From a bacterium (GTDB taxonomy: Bacteria > Calescibacteriota > Calescibacteriia > Calescibacteriales > Calescibacteriaceae): a stretch of 43,334 nt of DNA. Where the stretch lies: contig JAUQOU010000014.1 of the NCBI GenBank assembly GCA_030550715.1, positions 1 through 43,334 on the forward strand, in the 5' to 3' direction. The notes under the pieces were generated by a model. It saw only the letters and a list, made by a program, of their open reading frames with translations, was not told the origin of the DNA and made no database searches. Below, piece by piece: positions 4,949 through 31,140 of this stretch (its first letter is position 1; each line of letters opens with the position of its first letter). A program made the translations under genes and the position numbers.

Positions 4949-5088
4949 AAATAAAATTATTGGGTCGTAGATGAATGTGGCTTAAATCACCTCCTTTTCA
5001 CGTGTTTATACATATAAAATTTACGGAAAAATGTTTAAAATTGGAAAAAGATAAATAAATAAAAAGAGCTTGGGAGGTGAAAGAGGTC

Positions 5089-5403
5089 ATGAAAAGGTTG
5101 GCTTTGGCTGGTTTATTGTTAGCTTCGGCTTTGTTCCTCTCTGGCTGTGCTCTGGCTCCACTCCAAATAGGTCTCTTTTATACGGATGTAAAACTTCACA
5201 CAGGCGACCACAATCAAAAGATAGGTCCAAAAGCAGGCGAAAGCTGTGCTTCTAATATTCTTGGTTTAATAACCGTTGGAGACGCATCTGTAAAGGAAGC
5301 AGCAGCAAAAGCCGGAATAAAAGAGATAACAAGCATTGACTATAAAGTGACAAACATACTTCTTCTCTTTGGAACTTACTGCGTTATAGTCACAGGTGAG
5401 TAA
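5089..5403 (+). CDS. TRL-like small lipoprotein
   Basis: Signal peptide with lipobox LSGC; GLFYTDVK...GPKAGESCASNILGLITVGDASVKEAAAKAGI pattern; SD GGGAGGTGA before ATG 5089. Confidence 0.75.
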   Translation: MKRLALAGLLLASALFLSGCALAPLQIGLFYTDVKLHTGDHNQKIGPKAGESCASNILGLITVGDASVKEAAAKAGIKEITSIDYKVTNILLLFGTYCVIVTGE

Positions 5404-15373: not shown

Positions 15374-15838
15374 ATGAAAATTTTCCCCTGCGCGCTAATC
15401 CATTTTTTTCTTATCTCCTTATTCTTTTTTTCATCATCTCTTGCTGATGAGAGCAAAAACGAAACCTTTTCGGGTAGTACAACCTACTACTTTGATAATT
15501 ACTCTCTTCCTCCTGAACTCAAAAAGAGGGCTGAATACCTTTTTGAGATTTTGAGGTGTCCAACCTGCCAGAATATACCGATAAAAGAATCCTACTCTCA
15601 GGTTGCGGAAGTTATGAAAAGGGTCATAATTGAGAAACTAAAAGAAGGTTGGACAGATGACCAGATAATAAATTTTTTCGTCCAGAGATACGGTGATGAA
15701 GTCCTTTTAAAACCTAAGTTTGATTTTTTCTATCTTATTCCTTTTGCGGTTCTTGGTGTGGGGATTTTAACTGTTTTTCTTCTTTTTCTTCGCCCTTTGA
15801 ATAAAGAAAAGAAAGGCAACAAAAAAGGGAATGAGTGA
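15374..15838 (+). CDS. ccmH: Cytochrome c-type biogenesis protein CcmH
   Basis: Signal peptide, ILRCPTCQNIPIKES...MKRVIIEKLKEGWTDDQIINFFVQRYGDEVLLKPKFD, C-terminal TM. Confidence 0.92.
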   Translation: MKIFPCALIHFFLISLFFFSSSLADESKNETFSGSTTYYFDNYSLPPELKKRAEYLFEILRCPTCQNIPIKESYSQVAEVMKRVIIEKLKEGWTDDQIINFFVQRYGDEVLLKPKFDFFYLIPFAVLGVGILTVFLLFLRPLNKEKKGNKKGNE

Positions 15839-18109
15839 ATATGCATTTATATCAAATGTTTTGCAACTTAATACCGTTCCTGCTCCACCACCTAACCTTT
15901 TTAAGGTTGTGTCAACTATGAATTCTGATTCAAAATACTTGCTGGTGTTTCCCGCCTCATCCATAGCGTAAGCTGAAAATGAGTATCTCCCATCGGGAAG
16001 ATTTGAAAATGAAATTAGCAAATTCCCTCCGTTTCTTATTATGTTCTGAATTTGACTTTCTCTGCTGAATGTCCAGAAAATCTTTATTTTTTCGGGAGGT
16101 GAAGAATCGTCTTCCGCTTGCAAAAGTATCTTCCCGCTTGGTTCAAATGTTACTCTCTGCGGAAATTCAGCAATTTTAATTTTCGGTGGATCCAGGTCAA
16201 CCTGAAATTCTTCTTCAAAGATTTCACTTGTGTTATCTGCTGGGTCTCTTACCCTAAAACAAAGATGGTATTTTTTACCGTTCTCTACTCCGTATATTCT
16301 TCCTTCTCCAAATGGCTCATTTATCTCAATAGATATTGTCTTCCCCCACTGCGAAAAACATGTCTTTCTCATCTCAGATACTATTTCTTCTACGAAATAC
16401 TCAAGGTATCCGAACGAGAAAAAGTTATCTTTCATCTGAACTACTACTTTTAAATTTTCATATCTTGTCTTTGGTGGGGGGGAGAAAACCTTGACTATTT
16501 TTGGCGGTGTCTTATCTATTATTATTTCTTCTTCTTTTATGTCTGTTGAGTTTCCTCTAAGGTCGTTTATCCATATATAAGCTTTGTAGATTCCTTCGCT
16601 CACATCTTGAATTATCTCTGCCTCTTTTTTGAATTTCTTCTCTATTTTCAGAACCTCTTTTCCGTTCTGCTTCAGGACTATGTTTGCAGTAAGATAGTTA
16701 TCTGTGGATAAAAACTCCTCTACTGACCTATCTTGTGATAGATCTTCTGCTTTTATGTTTACTTTTAGGTTTTTCCAGTATTTTTTCACTTCTACTTGTG
16801 AGTCGGGGGGTTCTCTATCTACTAAAAATCTTGTTTTCAGAGATGTCTCGTTTATGTTCCCGTATATATTTTTCCCTATGACTTGAATTTCGTGCTTGCC
16901 TTGAACAAGGTTAGTTATTGATATACTGAAAGTTCCTTTTTCGTTCTTTTTTATCCACGAACTCCACACTCCGTTATCTACTCTGAAAGATATTTCATTT
17001 GTCTCGCTGTCGTTAGCCGATATTTCAAGCTCAACTCTCTCTGAATTTATTATTTTTGCGGGTGTTTTCAAGAAATATAGTGAAGGTGATTTTACATCTG
17101 CCGGCTTTTCATCAAATTCAAGTGATATGCTGTCTTCTCCTTCTGTATTTCCAGATGTAATCAATTTTGACTGATATGCTTTTACTATTTTTACCGAAAA
17201 AAAGCTCAGAATTGGAAAAGAAATGGGTTTATAATCTATGTTTCCTAAATAAAGATATATGATATATGAAGTAAGTTTTTTGATTCTTCCGTAGAATTCG
17301 TCTCTGCTTACCTTTGCAAGTCCGCTTATATCTTCATAGTTTATTTCATTTTCTACTTTTGTATCACATACGCCGAAGTTTATCACCATTGTTCCCCTAT
17401 ATAAACTCATTTCTCCTTCTATTTTTCTCACATCGGGTAGCCAGCTCAGAATATCTACGGTTATAGGAACCTGAAATCTTGTCCAGATATTAAATGTTTT
17501 TCCCATAGCTATGCCTATTTGAACCTGCATTTCTGCCTTTGCGAGATAATCAAAAGAGCATTTCTCATCTCTTCCTTTCTCTGGGATGATGCTTAATAAC
17601 CAGAGTTTCACATCAACATATGCCTTTTCGGGTTTCTGCTTCAGAATTGTGAAACCTTCGGGAAAGAACTCTTTTATGATGTATGGGGGTATTTCTGTTC
17701 TGAAAATTCCTCCGTATTTTTGCAGTATCTCTTTTATATGATTTAGAGTCAGTGTCGCTCTCACATGAGAAGAAAATGTTTGTGGTTCTACATAAAGCGG
17801 AGAGTCGCAGTTTGTTTTGAGCATGCAGAAAGTCCATGAACACTTTGAAGAACAAGAGTAAGGGTCTCCGGAAGACCCGGTATATTTCACTTCTAAATAA
17901 GGGTCGTCTGGGGTTAGTTGTAGAGGAGGAACTTGAATGAAATATTTATCTTCATTACCTGCGAAATCGTTTATTCCCTGAAACTCTAAAAACAAAATAT
18001 CACTTTTTGAACTCCGATAACTTAAAGCTATGATTATGAATGTTAAAATAAGGCAAGAGACCGCTTTTCTTGTTGCTTGCACAAATTTAATTTTAATGAT
18101 GATATACAT
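15767..18109 (-). CDS. Large secreted/surface protein with Ig-like (OmpL47/Y_Y_Y-type) repeats and C-terminal Cys-TM-polyLys tail
   Basis: N-terminal hydrophobic signal, repeated FRVDNGVWSSW...GKHEIQVIGKNIYGN / DGRYSFSAYAMDEAGNTSKYFESEFIVD modules, tail VLSCKTFDINAYSLIPFFVAFLFFIQRAKKKKKNS. Confidence 0.75.
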   Translation of the reverse strand: MYIIIKIKFVQATRKAVSCLILTFIIIALSYRSSKSDILFLEFQGINDFAGNEDKYFIQVPPLQLTPDDPYLEVKYTGSSGDPYSCSSKCSWTFCMLKTNCDSPLYVEPQTFSSHVRATLTLNHIKEILQKYGGIFRTEIPPYIIKEFFPEGFTILKQKPEKAYVDVKLWLLSIIPEKGRDEKCSFDYLAKAEMQVQIGIAMGKTFNIWTRFQVPITVDILSWLPDVRKIEGEMSLYRGTMVINFGVCDTKVENEINYEDISGLAKVSRDEFYGRIKKLTSYIIYLYLGNIDYKPISFPILSFFSVKIVKAYQSKLITSGNTEGEDSISLEFDEKPADVKSPSLYFLKTPAKIINSERVELEISANDSETNEISFRVDNGVWSSWIKKNEKGTFSISITNLVQGKHEIQVIGKNIYGNINETSLKTRFLVDREPPDSQVEVKKYWKNLKVNIKAEDLSQDRSVEEFLSTDNYLTANIVLKQNGKEVLKIEKKFKKEAEIIQDVSEGIYKAYIWINDLRGNSTDIKEEEIIIDKTPPKIVKVFSPPPKTRYENLKVVVQMKDNFFSFGYLEYFVEEIVSEMRKTCFSQWGKTISIEINEPFGEGRIYGVENGKKYHLCFRVRDPADNTSEIFEEEFQVDLDPPKIKIAEFPQRVTFEPSGKILLQAEDDSSPPEKIKIFWTFSRESQIQNIIRNGGNLLISFSNLPDGRYSFSAYAMDEAGNTSKYFESEFIVDTTLKRLGGGAGTVLSCKTFDINAYSLIPFFVAFLFFIQRAKKKKKNS

Positions 18110-21001: not shown

Positions 21002-21090
21002 AAAGAAAAATGTTCATTTTGCTTGACTTTTCCAAAAAGAGTGATTATTATTTTGGTATGGAAAAATATCTAACAAGGAGGTATATAGTT

Positions 21091-24000
21091 ATGGGTAAAA
21101 AACTTCTGTGGGGTTTGGTTGGTGTCTTTGGCTTTATACTTTTTATCACAGTAGGTCAGTCGGAAGCAAAGAGAATATATGAAATGCACCACGCGATAAC
21201 AAGAGATACAGGCAACCCATATACTGTTGGTCCGAAAGACCCGATAAGGTGGGGAGGGCTTCCGCAGGTTGCACCCGGTTTTATAACTCGTGAAGCACTT
21301 GAAAAACACAATGTTGTGGTAAGAATAACGAATTCCGGAATGCAAGAGATAGCAAATTTCATTTCAGACATTTTGCAATCCGACCCTTCTGTTGCTAATC
21401 TTATAGACCTTCTTGCAAGACAGTTCCTTGATAGATGCACAGATACCAAAGTTGTAGGGGATCTATGGGATTCTCTTTTTGATTTCCAGCAGTGGCTAAC
21501 AAATAACTACCCGAACGACCCAACATATAGCTACTATTTCAGAAACGCTACTATGGCTTGTGGAATAACTACTACATCATCGCTCTGGCAGTATGGAGAA
21601 GGTTTAACACATTGCTTCGGAAACGGAATCTTCTTTGAATATATTGCAGGATACAACCCGACAGGAACATGGGATTCGGGAACAAATATGTGTAAGAACG
21701 ACGGAAAAGGACTTTTCTCTATGTGTCTGCCTATTCCTTTGCTGAACGATGAAGGAGCACCGCTGTGCGTCAACGCGGTGATCTTCGGACAAGAAAGAAA
21801 TAAGGTTGTTGGAACTCTTGCTAACCCAATCCAATACTATTCAGGTGGTTTCAGCTGGCCACCTTTTGGAAAATGTGGAAGAGAACTCCCCGGAATTTGT
21901 CCAACTTCGCAGGGATGGGATAACTATTACTTTATAGATAGAGTTACAGGCAACAGGTTGATTCTTGATTACAATAGAAATAATATAAGAGTTACTCTTC
22001 AAGGTAATATAGGAACAGATTTGCCTGCTACCGCGACGTGTGAAGGAGACCTTACAGAACACACAACAGATGACCGACTTGATATAGGAATAGAAATAGG
22101 AAACTTCGAGATATCCTTGACTTTTGTTTCTCCTTTTGTCGATTCGCAGACAAGGTATGTAGATTGCAATTGGGTGGGTTCGTGTCAGTTCAAAGCAGGG
22201 GTCACCACGTTTCCGAATGACCTCTCATACTGTTTCAAGAACGCTGCTGCGGTGAATGACGATCATATATGCGACCCACAATTTGATAGAGGTATAACTC
22301 AATACCAATACAAGCCCGAAAGAGTTATCGCAAACTACATAAACGGAAGAGCATTTGTGAGAATACCACTTTTAGCCCTGCGACTTGGTATCCAAATAAA
22401 AGGTAATTTCAGAGATTGGACATCTTACAAAGATTGGGAGCACATGGTAAGAGGTCTTGGAATAAACCTCAAGTTCCTTGATGTTGTGGCTGGGGTAGCG
22501 TATGACTTTGTTCCTATGGCAAGTAGTGCTACCACACCTGCTTGCTGGGCTACTTCTTGGAACCAGGTTGGTTCTGTTCAGTACTGCCCGGAGTACAGAG
22601 TATCACAGAAGTTTGCAAAAACTCTGCTCTGGCTTGACGCTGTTTTGAGAATGCTAGCGGTAGATAACTTCAACGTAAGTTGTATTCCAAGCCACACTGT
22701 AAGCCAGTACAATACTTGTGTTGCCTATTTCTTATTCCCCGGTCAGGTCTTTGATTTAAAAAGCATAATAGATAGCATAAACCCGATATCACATCCGTTG
22801 GAGGAGGTAGTTTATGTTGGTCCTACAGCTTATTACGAATTGAAGTCAAACAAAATATTTATAGATTTTGGTTTCACGAATGATTTTTGGGCAGATAGTG
22901 CGGGAATCTTGCTTGCTATGAATGTAGGGGTAGATATAAGGTATGTTCTTTGGAGTTCTTCTGCGACAAGTATAACATTCGTCAAGAGAGATTACTCTGT
23001 GTTTAACGATTATGTTTCTACATGTGTTCAGTTTGCTTCTTTCGTTACTGCTGCAACAAGTCCAATCGTACCAATAGCAGAGTGCCAGCCGCAGACAGGT
23101 TGTCCATCATCAGTAAGAACAGTTGATGCGTGTCCTATAGTCAACGGTGGAAACGCTAACTTTGTATTCAAGACCGAAGCTTTACCACAAGCTCCTTCAT
23201 CTCCAACGCTTGCCGAAGGTAGATATGGATACTCTCTGACAAACTACTATATTGGTATAGGAATTCACCACAACCTTATTTCAAGGATACTTTACGAAGC
23301 GATAGGAGATGGACTTGCTTGTATATGGGTAGATAAGTACACTCCAATGCTCGGAGGATTTGCTGGTGGCTTCCTCAAAACTGACTCGTTCGGATTCTTT
23401 ATGCCCATGCTCAAAGATAAATACCCAGGAAAAGAGATGGCAATAGAGATTATACCAAACTACAAAGACCCAGGGAACCCATCAGGAAACTCTGGTGGAG
23501 CTGCTTCTTACAATAGACCTCTTTCTGTTGTAGCATACGCAAAAACAGGCGGTCCAACTTTCAGACCTGTCCTTTCTGTCTACGCACAGGGTTCAACAAG
23601 AGTTGATTTCTGGGCTGAATTCTTGAGAAATGCAACTTATGGTAGCAGTTTTACGATGTTCGTTCAGCCCACAACATGGTTTGATACCGCTGACCTTATG
23701 ATAGATATTCCTTATGTTGACCTATCGTTCAATGTCATAACAACAGGAAATATTACGGACCCGATGGCTTCCCAGACATGGATGAGAATATTTGGTCTTA
23801 CAGTAGGTATTCAACTTTCTGTTGATATAGACATAGTTCCTTGTGTCTCACCTGATTGTGCGAGAACTGTGGAGTTCCCGGGATTAGATTCAACTGACTT
23901 TACAAAACCTCTCACATCTTATTACAGGGATTACTATGGTAACCCGGTCCCTGATCCATCTAAGGGTGGGAACTACTTTCCAAACGGCGGTACATTTGCA

Positions 24001-25116
24001 CGTGTGATAGACCTGACGCTGTATGTTGACCCAGATGTGAGATACTTTATCGCATATAACACGAACGCTTTGGGGTTGAGTGGTTCTGATTGGGCTGAAA
24101 TACTTGGCAATATCTTACCCGTCATACTGAACGCTGTTGCAGGAGCTAAGCTGAGATTGGCATTTGACCCAGCAGCTCTTATACAGATACCTATTGCGTT
24201 TAACTTCCCGTGGGTGGGTCCTGAATTTGGTACTACTCTTGCCTACGACCAACCGTTTGCTGGTAATCCAAAAGATAACATAGGGGACTACTTTGAGATT
24301 TTCATTCACTGGCAGGGAAGAACAGGGTTAGGAAGGTTAATAAAACTTCTGAAATCTTTTGGAGTTGATATTGTGAATATAATAGGAGGGGTAGCAGGAC
24401 TCTCTGCTCCGCCAGCTGCAATTAATGTTCACCTCGCGAACGCGAATGGAAACGGAAACGGATTCAAGGTTACACCTCCTGAAACTCTGATAACCTACAC
24501 ATCTGACCCGCATGCACTTTACACAAAAATTGGCTTTTCTGCGTTCTCTCCTCAATCTTCAAGGTTCAAGTATTCTTGGCGACTTGATGGTGGTACATGG
24601 AACTTGTGGCAAGAAGAGAACTCGGTTGTTCTCACGCACCTTCTTGAAGGTTGGCACACCTTTGAGGTCAGAGCAAGAGATGAGAATAAGCTGATTGACC
24701 CAACACCTGCACGCTTTGTTTTCAGAGTGGATACACTCGGTCCAGATATAAGGATCTCTGGTCCAGAGCTTGTGAGAGGTGAGAGAGCGAGGTTCTTTGT
24801 TGATGTGAAAGATGCACAGGCAAAGAAATCAGAAACGCTTGTTGCATGGAGAGTAGATAACGGAGAATTCGGAGAGTGGGTGCCAGCGTCTGAGTTAAGC
24901 TATGTTGACCTTGACTCTCTATCAAAAGGTGAGCACATTCTTGAAATCAAGGCAAAAGACGATGTAGGAAATATATCAACATACTCTCACAGGTTCTTTG
25001 TGACAGAGAAAGTTGGAGTATTAGGATGTTCTGCATCTGCTGGATTTTCGGGATTTGGAGTTTTACTCTTTGCTCTTTCATTACTCTTCACTGTGATAAG
25101 AAGGAGGGTTGAGTAA
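21091..25116 (+). CDS. Very large secreted Cys-containing surface protein with C-terminal Ig-like modules and MYXO-CTERM-like tail
   Basis: SD AAGGAGG then ATG 21091; signal peptide MGKKLLWGLVGVFGFILFITVGQSEA; C-terminal WRLDGGTWNLW / WRVDNGEFGEW modules; tail VLGCSASAGFSGFGVLLFALSLLFTVIRRRVE. Confidence 0.8.
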   Translation: MGKKLLWGLVGVFGFILFITVGQSEAKRIYEMHHAITRDTGNPYTVGPKDPIRWGGLPQVAPGFITREALEKHNVVVRITNSGMQEIANFISDILQSDPSVANLIDLLARQFLDRCTDTKVVGDLWDSLFDFQQWLTNNYPNDPTYSYYFRNATMACGITTTSSLWQYGEGLTHCFGNGIFFEYIAGYNPTGTWDSGTNMCKNDGKGLFSMCLPIPLLNDEGAPLCVNAVIFGQERNKVVGTLANPIQYYSGGFSWPPFGKCGRELPGICPTSQGWDNYYFIDRVTGNRLILDYNRNNIRVTLQGNIGTDLPATATCEGDLTEHTTDDRLDIGIEIGNFEISLTFVSPFVDSQTRYVDCNWVGSCQFKAGVTTFPNDLSYCFKNAAAVNDDHICDPQFDRGITQYQYKPERVIANYINGRAFVRIPLLALRLGIQIKGNFRDWTSYKDWEHMVRGLGINLKFLDVVAGVAYDFVPMASSATTPACWATSWNQVGSVQYCPEYRVSQKFAKTLLWLDAVLRMLAVDNFNVSCIPSHTVSQYNTCVAYFLFPGQVFDLKSIIDSINPISHPLEEVVYVGPTAYYELKSNKIFIDFGFTNDFWADSAGILLAMNVGVDIRYVLWSSSATSITFVKRDYSVFNDYVSTCVQFASFVTAATSPIVPIAECQPQTGCPSSVRTVDACPIVNGGNANFVFKTEALPQAPSSPTLAEGRYGYSLTNYYIGIGIHHNLISRILYEAIGDGLACIWVDKYTPMLGGFAGGFLKTDSFGFFMPMLKDKYPGKEMAIEIIPNYKDPGNPSGNSGGAASYNRPLSVVAYAKTGGPTFRPVLSVYAQGSTRVDFWAEFLRNATYGSSFTMFVQPTTWFDTADLMIDIPYVDLSFNVITTGNITDPMASQTWMRIFGLTVGIQLSVDIDIVPCVSPDCARTVEFPGLDSTDFTKPLTSYYRDYYGNPVPDPSKGGNYFPNGGTFARVIDLTLYVDPDVRYFIAYNTNALGLSGSDWAEILGNILPVILNAVAGAKLRLAFDPAALIQIPIAFNFPWVGPEFGTTLAYDQPFAGNPKDNIGDYFEIFIHWQGRTGLGRLIKLLKSFGVDIVNIIGGVAGLSAPPAAINVHLANANGNGNGFKVTPPETLITYTSDPHALYTKIGFSAFSPQSSRFKYSWRLDGGTWNLWQEENSVVLTHLLEGWHTFEVRARDENKLIDPTPARFVFRVDTLGPDIRISGPELVRGERARFFVDVKDAQAKKSETLVAWRVDNGEFGEWVPASELSYVDLDSLSKGEHILEIKAKDDVGNISTYSHRFFVTEKVGVLGCSASAGFSGFGVLLFALSLLFTVIRRRVE

Positions 25117-26201: not shown

Positions 26202-26273
26202 ACGATCAAATTTTTTCCCTTTATTGTTTTGTTTTTTCTGTATTATTTGATATTTTCTTCAATCTTTTAATGT

Positions 26274-27998
26274 ATGAAGGTTTCAATAGGTTCGGACCAC
26301 GCTGGTTATTTTCTGAAAGAGAAAATAAAAGAGTTTCTGAGGAGTAAGGGGATAGATTTTGAGGATAAGGGTGTATATTCTGCTGATGGTAAGGTAGATT
26401 ATCCAGATTTTGCTCGTGCTGTTGCGGAAGAGGTTTCTTCTCATAGAGCAGATTTAGGAATTCTGATATGTGGGACGGGGATAGGGATGAGCATTACTGC
26501 TAATAAGTTTCCGGGGGTTAGGGCTGCGCTTGTGTTCAACGAGTTTTCCGCTCGCATGGCGAAAGCTCACAATGACGCAAACATAATCGTTTTCCCAGGA
26601 AGAATTATCTCCCCAGATTACGCCATAGAACTTATGAAGGTCTTTTTAGAAAGCTCATTTGAAGGAGGAAGACATTTGTCAAGAATAGAGAAGATAAAAG
26701 ATATAGAGGAAGAACTTAAGTTTTCTCTCTCTCATATTTTTGGAATGATAAGAAAATTTGATCCGGATGTTTTTTACGCTATACGGAATGAGATAGAAAA
26801 ACAAGAAAATACGCTGAATCTGATAGCTTCTGAGAACCTGACGAGTTTGAGGGTTCTTCTTTCGCTTTTTAATCCTATGAATAACAAATACGCCGAGGGT
26901 TATCCATCAAAACGTTATTACGGTGGTTGTGAGTTTGTAGATATTGTTGAGGAGATAGCTCGCGAGAGGGTGAAAAAGATTTTTTCAGCAGAACACGCAA
27001 ATGTTCAACCACACTCAGGGACTCAGGCGAATCAGGCGGTTTTCCTCGGTTTCCTCGAGCCGGGAGATAAAATTATGAGTTTGGAATTATCTTCTGGTGG
27101 GCATTTATCTCATGGCGCAAAGGTCAATTTTTCCGGGAAAATATACCAACCTGTTTTTTATACTGTTGATGAAAGAACTCATCTTTTAGACCTTGATAAG
27201 ATAAGGGAAATAGCAAGGAAGGAGAGACCGAAGATAATAATCGCTGGGGCTTCTTCTTATCCAAGAGCGATAGATTTCAAAGCTTTTTCTGAAATCGCAA
27301 AGGAAGTTTCGGCTTATCTTCTTGCAGATATAGCTCATCCTGCTGGTTTGGTTGCTGCGGGGGTTTTTCCTTCTCCTGTGCCATACGCAGATTTTGTGAC
27401 CTTTACAACCCATAAAACACTGAGGGGTCCTCGTGGTGCAGTTATTCTTACAAAATCTGATTACGCAAAAAAGATTGACTCTTCTGTTTTTCCGGGGACT
27501 CAAGGGGGACCGTTTATGCATGTTATAGCTGCAAAAGCGGTCTGCTTCAAAGAGGCGATGGAACCTGATTTCAAGCTCTATGCGGAGCAGGTCGTGAAAA
27601 ACGCAAGAGCTCTCGCAGATGAATTTCAAAAACTCGGATATAATGTCATAACAGGAGGAACTGATTCTCATATCGTTCTTATAGATGTATCTCCAAAGGG
27701 AGTCAGCGGTGGAGATGTTGAAAGAGAACTGTATAAAGCTGGAATAATTCTTAATAAAAATGTTATACCTTTTGATAAAAGACCTCCGATGAATCCATCT
27801 GGAATAAGATTGGGAACATCTGCTCTTACTACGCGTGGAATGAAGGAAGAAGAGATGAGAATTATAGCTCGTATGATAGATAGAGTGATATCGGCAAATT
27901 TTGACGAGAAAGTTGTCTCAGTGGTCAGAGGTGAAGTCAGTGAAATGTGCGCCAGGTTCCCGTTCTACAGAGACCTTCTTATGCTTCTTGGAAAATGA
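26274..27998 (+). CDS. Fusion of ribose-5-phosphate isomerase B and serine hydroxymethyltransferase
   Basis: Residues ~1-147 RpiB (GSDHAGYFLKE, ILICGTGIGMSITANK, HNDANIIVFPGR); residues ~155-574 GlyA (NLIASEN, NKYAEGYPSKRYYGG, VQPHSGTQANQAVF, ADIAHPAGL, TTHKTLRGPRG). One uninterrupted frame. Confidence 0.95.
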   Translation: MKVSIGSDHAGYFLKEKIKEFLRSKGIDFEDKGVYSADGKVDYPDFARAVAEEVSSHRADLGILICGTGIGMSITANKFPGVRAALVFNEFSARMAKAHNDANIIVFPGRIISPDYAIELMKVFLESSFEGGRHLSRIEKIKDIEEELKFSLSHIFGMIRKFDPDVFYAIRNEIEKQENTLNLIASENLTSLRVLLSLFNPMNNKYAEGYPSKRYYGGCEFVDIVEEIARERVKKIFSAEHANVQPHSGTQANQAVFLGFLEPGDKIMSLELSSGGHLSHGAKVNFSGKIYQPVFYTVDERTHLLDLDKIREIARKERPKIIIAGASSYPRAIDFKAFSEIAKEVSAYLLADIAHPAGLVAAGVFPSPVPYADFVTFTTHKTLRGPRGAVILTKSDYAKKIDSSVFPGTQGGPFMHVIAAKAVCFKEAMEPDFKLYAEQVVKNARALADEFQKLGYNVITGGTDSHIVLIDVSPKGVSGGDVERELYKAGIILNKNVIPFDKRPPMNPSGIRLGTSALTTRGMKEEEMRIIARMIDRVISANFDEKVVSVVRGEVSEMCARFPFYRDLLMLLGK

Positions 27999-28943: not shown

Positions 28944-29711
28944 TCATTTTTTCTTTTTTTCAAGGAATTCTTTCATTTTGTTTTTTGCATAGGGTGAAGA
29001 TATACACGATGCACAGAAAAGAGCTTCTGTTCTCAGATTTTCTTCAAGCTCTCCTGCGTTTGATAGGTTGCAGAGCTCAATTATATATCTCAGAGCGGTA
29101 GGATTTTTATCTTTGAACTTGAATATAATTTCTTTTGCTTTTTTTAAGAGTTCTTGACTGTTTTGAGCTATATCGTCTATTGCTCCTATTTCAAGTGCTT
29201 CTTCTGCTGAAATAATTTTTCCTTCCATTATTAACTTTTTTGCTTTTTGTGGGGAGATGAGACGTGAGAGGCGTTGAGTTCCGCCATATCCTGGCACAAT
29301 TCCAAGATTTATCTCAGGCAATCCTAACTTTGAGTTTTTGGTTGCTACTCTGAATGTGCACGCCAGAGCGAGTTCGAAACCTCCACCAAGAGCATAACCA
29401 TCTATTGCTGCAACTGTGATATACTTTAATTTTTCAAGCTTTGAAAGAGTTCTCTGACCATTTCTCAAATATTCATAAGCTTGATGGAAGTTTTCAAGAG
29501 AATAAAGTTCGTTTATATCTGCTCCTGCTGAAAAAGCTCTTCCTTCTCCTCTTATAATTACTCCAAAGTATTTTCCGTACCATATTTTATCTATAATTTG
29601 GTCAAGTTCTTGCAAGATCTGGCGTGAGAGTGCGTTAAGTGTTTCGGGAGAGTTTAAAGTTATTATCAAAATTCCTTCTTCTTCATCTGTTTTGACTTTT
29701 CTGGTATTCAT
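28944..29711 (-). CDS. Enoyl-CoA hydratase/isomerase family protein
   Basis: RGEGRAFSAGADINEL, AAIDGYALGGGFELALACTFRVA, KLGLPEINLGIVPGYGGTQRLSRL. Confidence 0.95.
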   Translation of the reverse strand: MNTRKVKTDEEEGILIITLNSPETLNALSRQILQELDQIIDKIWYGKYFGVIIRGEGRAFSAGADINELYSLENFHQAYEYLRNGQRTLSKLEKLKYITVAAIDGYALGGGFELALACTFRVATKNSKLGLPEINLGIVPGYGGTQRLSRLISPQKAKKLIMEGKIISAEEALEIGAIDDIAQNSQELLKKAKEIIFKFKDKNPTALRYIIELCNLSNAGELEENLRTEALFCASCISSPYAKNKMKEFLEKKKK

Positions 29712-29724
29712 TTATGTCGTTCCC

Positions 29725-30930
29725 TTACTCTTCTTTTCCTTCTTTTTCGTCTTCAACCTGAACTTTTATGACCATTTTTCCGAAGTGTTTGTTCTCATAC
29801 ATAAGCTGATGAGCAAGGGGAGTTTCCTCAAACTCAAAGACGCGTGAGACGATGGGTTTTATTTTTTTCTGTATTATCAGTTCGTTAGCTATATATGCGT
29901 CGTATGCGTTTGCAAAGTGAGAACCGATTATTCTTTTTTGTCTCATCCAAAGGTATCTCACATCAAAAACGAGGTTGTATCCCGTTGTAGCACCACAGAT
30001 TACAATTTTTCCAAATCTATCTGCAACATACACGCTTGTAGCAAAGGTTTCATACCCGACATGTTCAAAGACAATGTCTGGGTCTTTGCCTCCCGTTAGC
30101 TTTCTTATCTCATCTCTGAACCTTTTCATCTCTTTGAAGGTTTTTTCATCTATCTTACCGTTTTTTGGTGTTATATCAAATTCTGTTCTATTGATGAAGA
30201 GTTCTGCTCCGAGTTCACGGAGTATCTGAGCTTTTTCTGGTGATGATACAACGCATACTGGAATTGCTCCGACAAGCAAACATATTTGAGTTGCAAATAT
30301 ACCAAGCCCTCCCGCCGCTCCCCATATGAGTACAACATCGCCGGGTTTTATCTCTGCCTGTCTTATGAGCATTCTCCACGCTGTAAAATATGTAAGACCA
30401 TAGCTTGCTGCTTCTACCCATGAAAGATGTTTTGGTTTTGGGAGAACCTGCTGAGCTTGAACGAGGCAGAACTGAGCGAATGCTCCCCAGTTTGTCTCAT
30501 AAGCCCAAATCCTCTGATTTCTGCAAGCCATAGGGTCAAGCCCGTTGCATTCCGGACACTGTCCGCATGATTGATTGCAGTGCAAAACCACTTTATCTCC
30601 CACTTTGCAGTTTGTAACTCCTGGACCAACTTTCCAGACAATTCCCGAAGCATCTGACCCGGCTATATGAAAATCATATCCTGTGTATTTCATAACATTA
30701 ACTGGTTTTCCAAGCGATGCCCAGACACCGTTGAAATTCACTCCCGCAGCTTTTACAAGAACGAGAACTTCTCCCGGTCCTGGCTCAGGGACATCTATTT
30801 CTTCAACTTTCATTGCTTTGATTGGTTCTCCTAATCTATCTGGTCTTATAACTATTGCCTTCATTTTTTTTACTGGGGTTCCGGGTTCCACATCGACCTT
30901 TCCTAAGGGAAGGATATCAACTTTCTGCAT
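29725..30930 (-). CDS. Zinc-type MDR oxidoreductase, crotonyl-CoA carboxylase/reductase-like
   Basis: GVNFNGVWASLGKP, YDFHIAGSDASGIVWKVG, QRIWAYETNWGAFAQFCLVQAQQVLPKPKHLSW, WMRQKRIIGSHFAN; SD AAGGAGG upstream of ATG ending at 30930. Confidence 0.85.
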   Translation of the reverse strand: MQKVDILPLGKVDVEPGTPVKKMKAIVIRPDRLGEPIKAMKVEEIDVPEPGPGEVLVLVKAAGVNFNGVWASLGKPVNVMKYTGYDFHIAGSDASGIVWKVGPGVTNCKVGDKVVLHCNQSCGQCPECNGLDPMACRNQRIWAYETNWGAFAQFCLVQAQQVLPKPKHLSWVEAASYGLTYFTAWRMLIRQAEIKPGDVVLIWGAAGGLGIFATQICLLVGAIPVCVVSSPEKAQILRELGAELFINRTEFDITPKNGKIDEKTFKEMKRFRDEIRKLTGGKDPDIVFEHVGYETFATSVYVADRFGKIVICGATTGYNLVFDVRYLWMRQKRIIGSHFANAYDAYIANELIIQKKIKPIVSRVFEFEETPLAHQLMYENKHFGKMVIKVQVEDEKEGKEE

Positions 30931-31140
30931 TTTCTTTTCCTCCTTTTTTACAAACTCTTGCTTTAATTTGTTATCTTTTTGGATTTTGAACTTCAAATTT
31001 TTTATGTTTTTTTTATTTTTTATTTTGCTTTTTCAGGAATTTTCTTTGTGTTTTAATGAGGGGAAAAGATTTTTTCGGGCTAATTTTTTGTAAGTTGAGA
31101 AAGGTTTAGGAATTTTTGTTAAATTGATTTTTAAGTAGGG

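Follow-up and report, generated by a model that had tools for sequence, protein, structure and literature searches.

The window, the whole stretch of 43,334 nucleotides analysed here (contig C45 of genome G000), contains on its forward strand an open reading frame that translates into 574 amino acids plus a stop codon, with zero internal stops. The features of this gene are as follows.

26274..27998, forward strand: rpiB-glyA fusion gene, 574 aa, ATG start, TGA stop included; kept in the relatives' loci L002-L005
26274..26711, forward strand: RpiB (ribose-5-phosphate isomerase B) domain, residues 1-146 (Pfam LacAB_rpiB, NCBIfam TIGR01120 rpiB)
26469-26471, forward strand: presumed catalytic Cys66 of the RpiB domain
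26712..26750, forward strand: connector, about residues 147-159 (alignment, dN/dS), with a 6-residue insert in L004
26751..27995, forward strand: SHMT (GlyA) domain, residues 160-574 (Pfam SHMT, NCBIfam PRK00011, structure 1kkj and relatives)
27414-27416, forward strand: presumed PLP lysine K381 of the SHMT domain

A clear Shine-Dalgarno-like site is absent 5' of the fusion start (window 26244-26274, +), and likewise in the family relatives that were read. Elsewhere in the window, a 1368-aa protein without an NCBIfam match (21010-25116, +) ends in GCSASAGFSGFGVLLFALSLLFTVIRRRVE, a C-terminus with a Cys, a hydrophobic stretch and an Arg cluster that resembles a sorting tag. ORFs at 15767-18109 (-) and 5077-5403 (+) give weak, below-cut-off matches to the Leptospira surface families OmpL47 and Lsa14, and a crotonyl-CoA carboxylase/reductase (28944-30996, -; TIGR01751, above cut-off) adjoins an enoyl-CoA hydratase-like ORF.

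The original prediction of a complete RpiB and a complete SHMT in one ORF is borne out by the translation, Pfam and NCBIfam. Pfam LacAB_rpiB (PF02502) spans residues 3-141 with an E-value of 3e-54 (183 bits, cut-off 24.7), and NCBIfam TIGR01120 rpiB scores 172 bits, above its cut-off of 138.65. Pfam SHMT (PF00464) spans residues 160-535 (E 8e-155), NCBIfam PRK00011 matches over its full length (profile positions 1-404 of 404; 604 bits, cut-off 335), and the SHMT half matches structure 1kkj and its relatives with an E-value of about 1e-143. Both halves are folded in the AlphaFold model (mean pLDDT 90.6, pTM 0.78), with a short break at 150-151.

The RpiB half retains D8/H9, C66, T68, H99, R133 and R137, which we take, by E. 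coli RpiB, to be the catalytic cysteine and the phosphate/anion residues. In the SHMT half, aligned with 1kkj, E208, Y216, D352, H355, K381 and R512 are invariant in alignments A1 and A2; K381 is presumably the PLP lysine and the others active-site residues. With both domains in a single uninterrupted frame and these residues present, the sequence agrees with the covalent RpiB-GlyA enzyme that had been proposed. The SHMT segment NLIASENLTSLRVLLSLFNPMNNKYAEGYP (window 26817-26906, +) departs from the usual ELIASENFxSxAVLEAxGSxLTNKYAEGYP pattern and is similar across all five family members.

The charged linker of the original prediction, RIEKIKDIEEELK, corresponds to residues 137-149 (nt 26682-26720), most of which belong to the C-terminal helix of RpiB; this helix covers residues 133-149 in the AlphaFold model, and the RpiB HMM match runs to 147. 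The NCBIfam rpiB match extends to residue 145-147 and the NCBIfam SHMT match begins at 163, and the true connector comprises about 13 residues, approximately 147-159 (nt 26712-26750). Its length changes by whole codons within the family, so that the frame is kept, and its dN/dS is about 0.5-1.2; the domains, where the ratio could be measured, give 0.04-0.11. The connector is thus free to vary in sequence and unconstrained apart from its frame. We considered an internal start yielding free SHMT and rejected it, since the junction showed no start codon with a Shine-Dalgarno-like site that is conserved among the family members; an ATG at residue 158 occurs in L001 and L002 only, a TTG at 148 in L003-L005, and weak internal initiation may occur.

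The fusion is uninterrupted in all five genomes examined from the window's family (G000-G004, with L002-L005 in relatives G001-G004), at 71-96% identity, and the family forms one clade in the SHMT tree with a support of 100. A stop or frameshift missed between the domains had been a concern; none is present, and the frame is likewise open in G001-G004. Although the window's genome is fragmented (70 contigs), an assembly error or missed stop uniting two separate genes has next to no probability: the five genomes share one open frame at that range of identities, with connector length changes in whole codons, and this shared fusion rules an artefact out. Measured against L002, RpiB has a dN/dS of 0.077 and SHMT one of 0.035, and both halves are under purifying selection; against L003-L005 dS of RpiB is saturated and the computed ratio of 0.000 is meaningless. 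In each of the five genomes, the fusion is the sole LacAB_rpiB match and the sole SHMT match, and RpiA was not found in any of them. Both activities in the family therefore probably depend on the fusion protein, as far as gene content tells. The genomes are 82-87% complete, and a separate rpiA, rpiB or glyA could have escaped any single one, but its absence from all five on that account is unlikely.

To place the fusion among bacteria, we used a sample of 386 genomes, five of them from the window's family. Uninterrupted full-length fusions occur in about nine of the 381 genomes outside the family (G024, G046, G053, G102, G142, G240, G268, G279 and G368), where divergent fusions may have been lost at the 1e-160 threshold and those of G102 and G279 are taken from the match table alone. 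Four of the seven genomes in the phylum of G240 have a full-length stop-free match; G368 has a C-terminal stop only, G392 is flagged in the match table with one TAG and G395 is interrupted by a contig end. Of 145 Verrucomicrobiota genomes, about 111 show a stop-free match across both domains, a count made by hand that takes in G472, whose match begins at query residue 40. Further examples are found in Akkermansia sp. (L035), Kiritimatiellae (L032) and Lentisphaerota (L034, L045); L034 and L045 start near RpiB, and the same two-domain architecture thus exists outside the family. In many other sampled genomes the two genes follow one another in frame with a stop between them, or are neighbours in different frames. 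These separate pairs share gene order, close spacing and sometimes the frame with the window's gene, but have a stop codon between rpiB and glyA; adjacency, which the original prediction ascribed to some bacteria, is common.

Reading of the ORFs showed that the long-linker fusions suggested by the open-frame column in G005 and G037 are separate genes, whereas the stop flagged in L123 (one TAG) is the normal C-terminal one and that fusion is intact. A 1140-aa ORF of G052 (L163:1725-5147) carries transaldolase and phosphoglucose isomerase domains in frame with LacAB_rpiB; judged by its domains, it is another kind of RpiB fusion, one that stays within the pentose phosphate pathway.

The RpiB-SHMT architecture is already known. 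Minf_1669 of Methylacidiphilum infernorum V4, published in 2008, combines a phosphatase, RpiB and SHMT in one protein, and its authors suggested that the serine and pentose phosphate pathways are linked (PMC2474590). The view that a covalent fusion is unusual is not supported, given this report and the many lineages with fusions. By its published description, Minf_1669 resembles the window's protein in carrying RpiB and SHMT in one chain, but it has an additional low-molecular-weight phosphatase domain and a verrucomicrobial host, whereas the window's protein consists of RpiB and SHMT alone and Pfam detects no LMW phosphatase domain in it. The three-domain LMWPc-RpiB-SHMT arrangement is present in L083, L132 and L136. 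Fusions from Verrucomicrobiota, Kiritimatiellota and Lentisphaerota (L083, L132, L136, L032 and L034) share the RpiB-SHMT order, short connector and complete domains of the window's protein. Those included in alignment A2 are 47-53% identical to it over the fusion, and several of the group have the extra phosphatase domain. They hold a separate position in the SHMT tree and are therefore probably an independent fusion. Searches of the open-licence literature turned up no two-domain rpiB-glyA fusion, that of the window's family included.

On the SHMT tree, which has 90 rows, nine changes of the fused label are required, compared with 19 on average for shuffled labels, and at least five of the nine are forced by starred (well-supported) branches; the count is rough, as the tree was searched quickly, leaves many forks open and uses rows chosen by similarity to the fusion, and gains and losses are in general indistinguishable on it. 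The clearest recent cases of a change of state are L006 and L008, each fused and beside an unfused in-frame tandem sister of its own family (L112 and L111, respectively). The tree and these pairs indicate that rpiB-glyA fusions arose several times independently in bacteria.

Very probably, then, the window's gene encodes a bifunctional enzyme born of gene fusion, most likely when the stop codon separating rpiB from glyA was lost, two genes that commonly adjoin and would be an ancient pair. The N-terminal half would interconvert ribulose-5-phosphate and ribose-5-phosphate (R5P), and the C-terminal half would convert serine and THF to glycine and methylene-THF. De novo purine synthesis draws on PRPP (made from R5P), on glycine and on one-carbon units. 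In E. coli, glyA belongs to the PurR purine regulon (PMC12651746). Since the two reactions have no common intermediate, channelling between the halves is not expected, and the likely benefit is a fixed co-supply for purine synthesis, with the fusion giving a fixed 1:1 production of two activities that would supply purine precursors. This is our preferred reading, which we consider about evenly poised between right and wrong. Obligate co-expression, raised in the original prediction, is plausible and adopted here. The co-supply benefit, the oligomeric state, both activities and the absence of channelling are what we infer. A purM-like gene lies inside the window, yet about 13 kb from the fusion and not adjoining it.

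The main rival to fixed co-supply is a near-neutral fusion, where the stop was lost tolerably because the RpiB C-terminus and the SHMT N-terminus accept a join, and the still bifunctional protein persists by descent without benefit. Several independent origins, a connector unconstrained and variable in length, the lack of a common intermediate and deep persistence once fixed (5/5 in the family, about 111/145 in Verrucomicrobiota) all fit this explanation, which we regard as a real, if somewhat doubtful, possibility; recurrence, long retention and the third domain (LMWPc) added in Verrucomicrobiota hint at selective value but are not decisive. Since most bacteria in which the two genes adjoin keep them unfused, any benefit is modest or condition-dependent, and the fusion may be near-neutral. 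Altered assembly or allosteric cross-talk, with RpiB and SHMT dimers forced into one complex and the ligand of one site altering the activity of the other, is unlikely: the parent enzymes are both oligomers and a stretch of no more than about 13 residues connects them, but the free sequence of this connector and a length differing by 6 residues within the family argue against a precise inter-domain interface. A further proposal, that RpiB and SHMT are coupled via a shared oligomer into a regulated unit supplying purine precursors and that this coupling explains the repeated independent origin, is very unlikely.

The case shows that the route from gene adjacency to gene fusion is repeatable: close relatives (L006/L112, L008/L111) allow fused, in-frame tandem and separate versions of this gene pair to be set side by side. 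It is also relevant to annotation and to metabolic models that a single gene seems to carry two central activities in the window's family.
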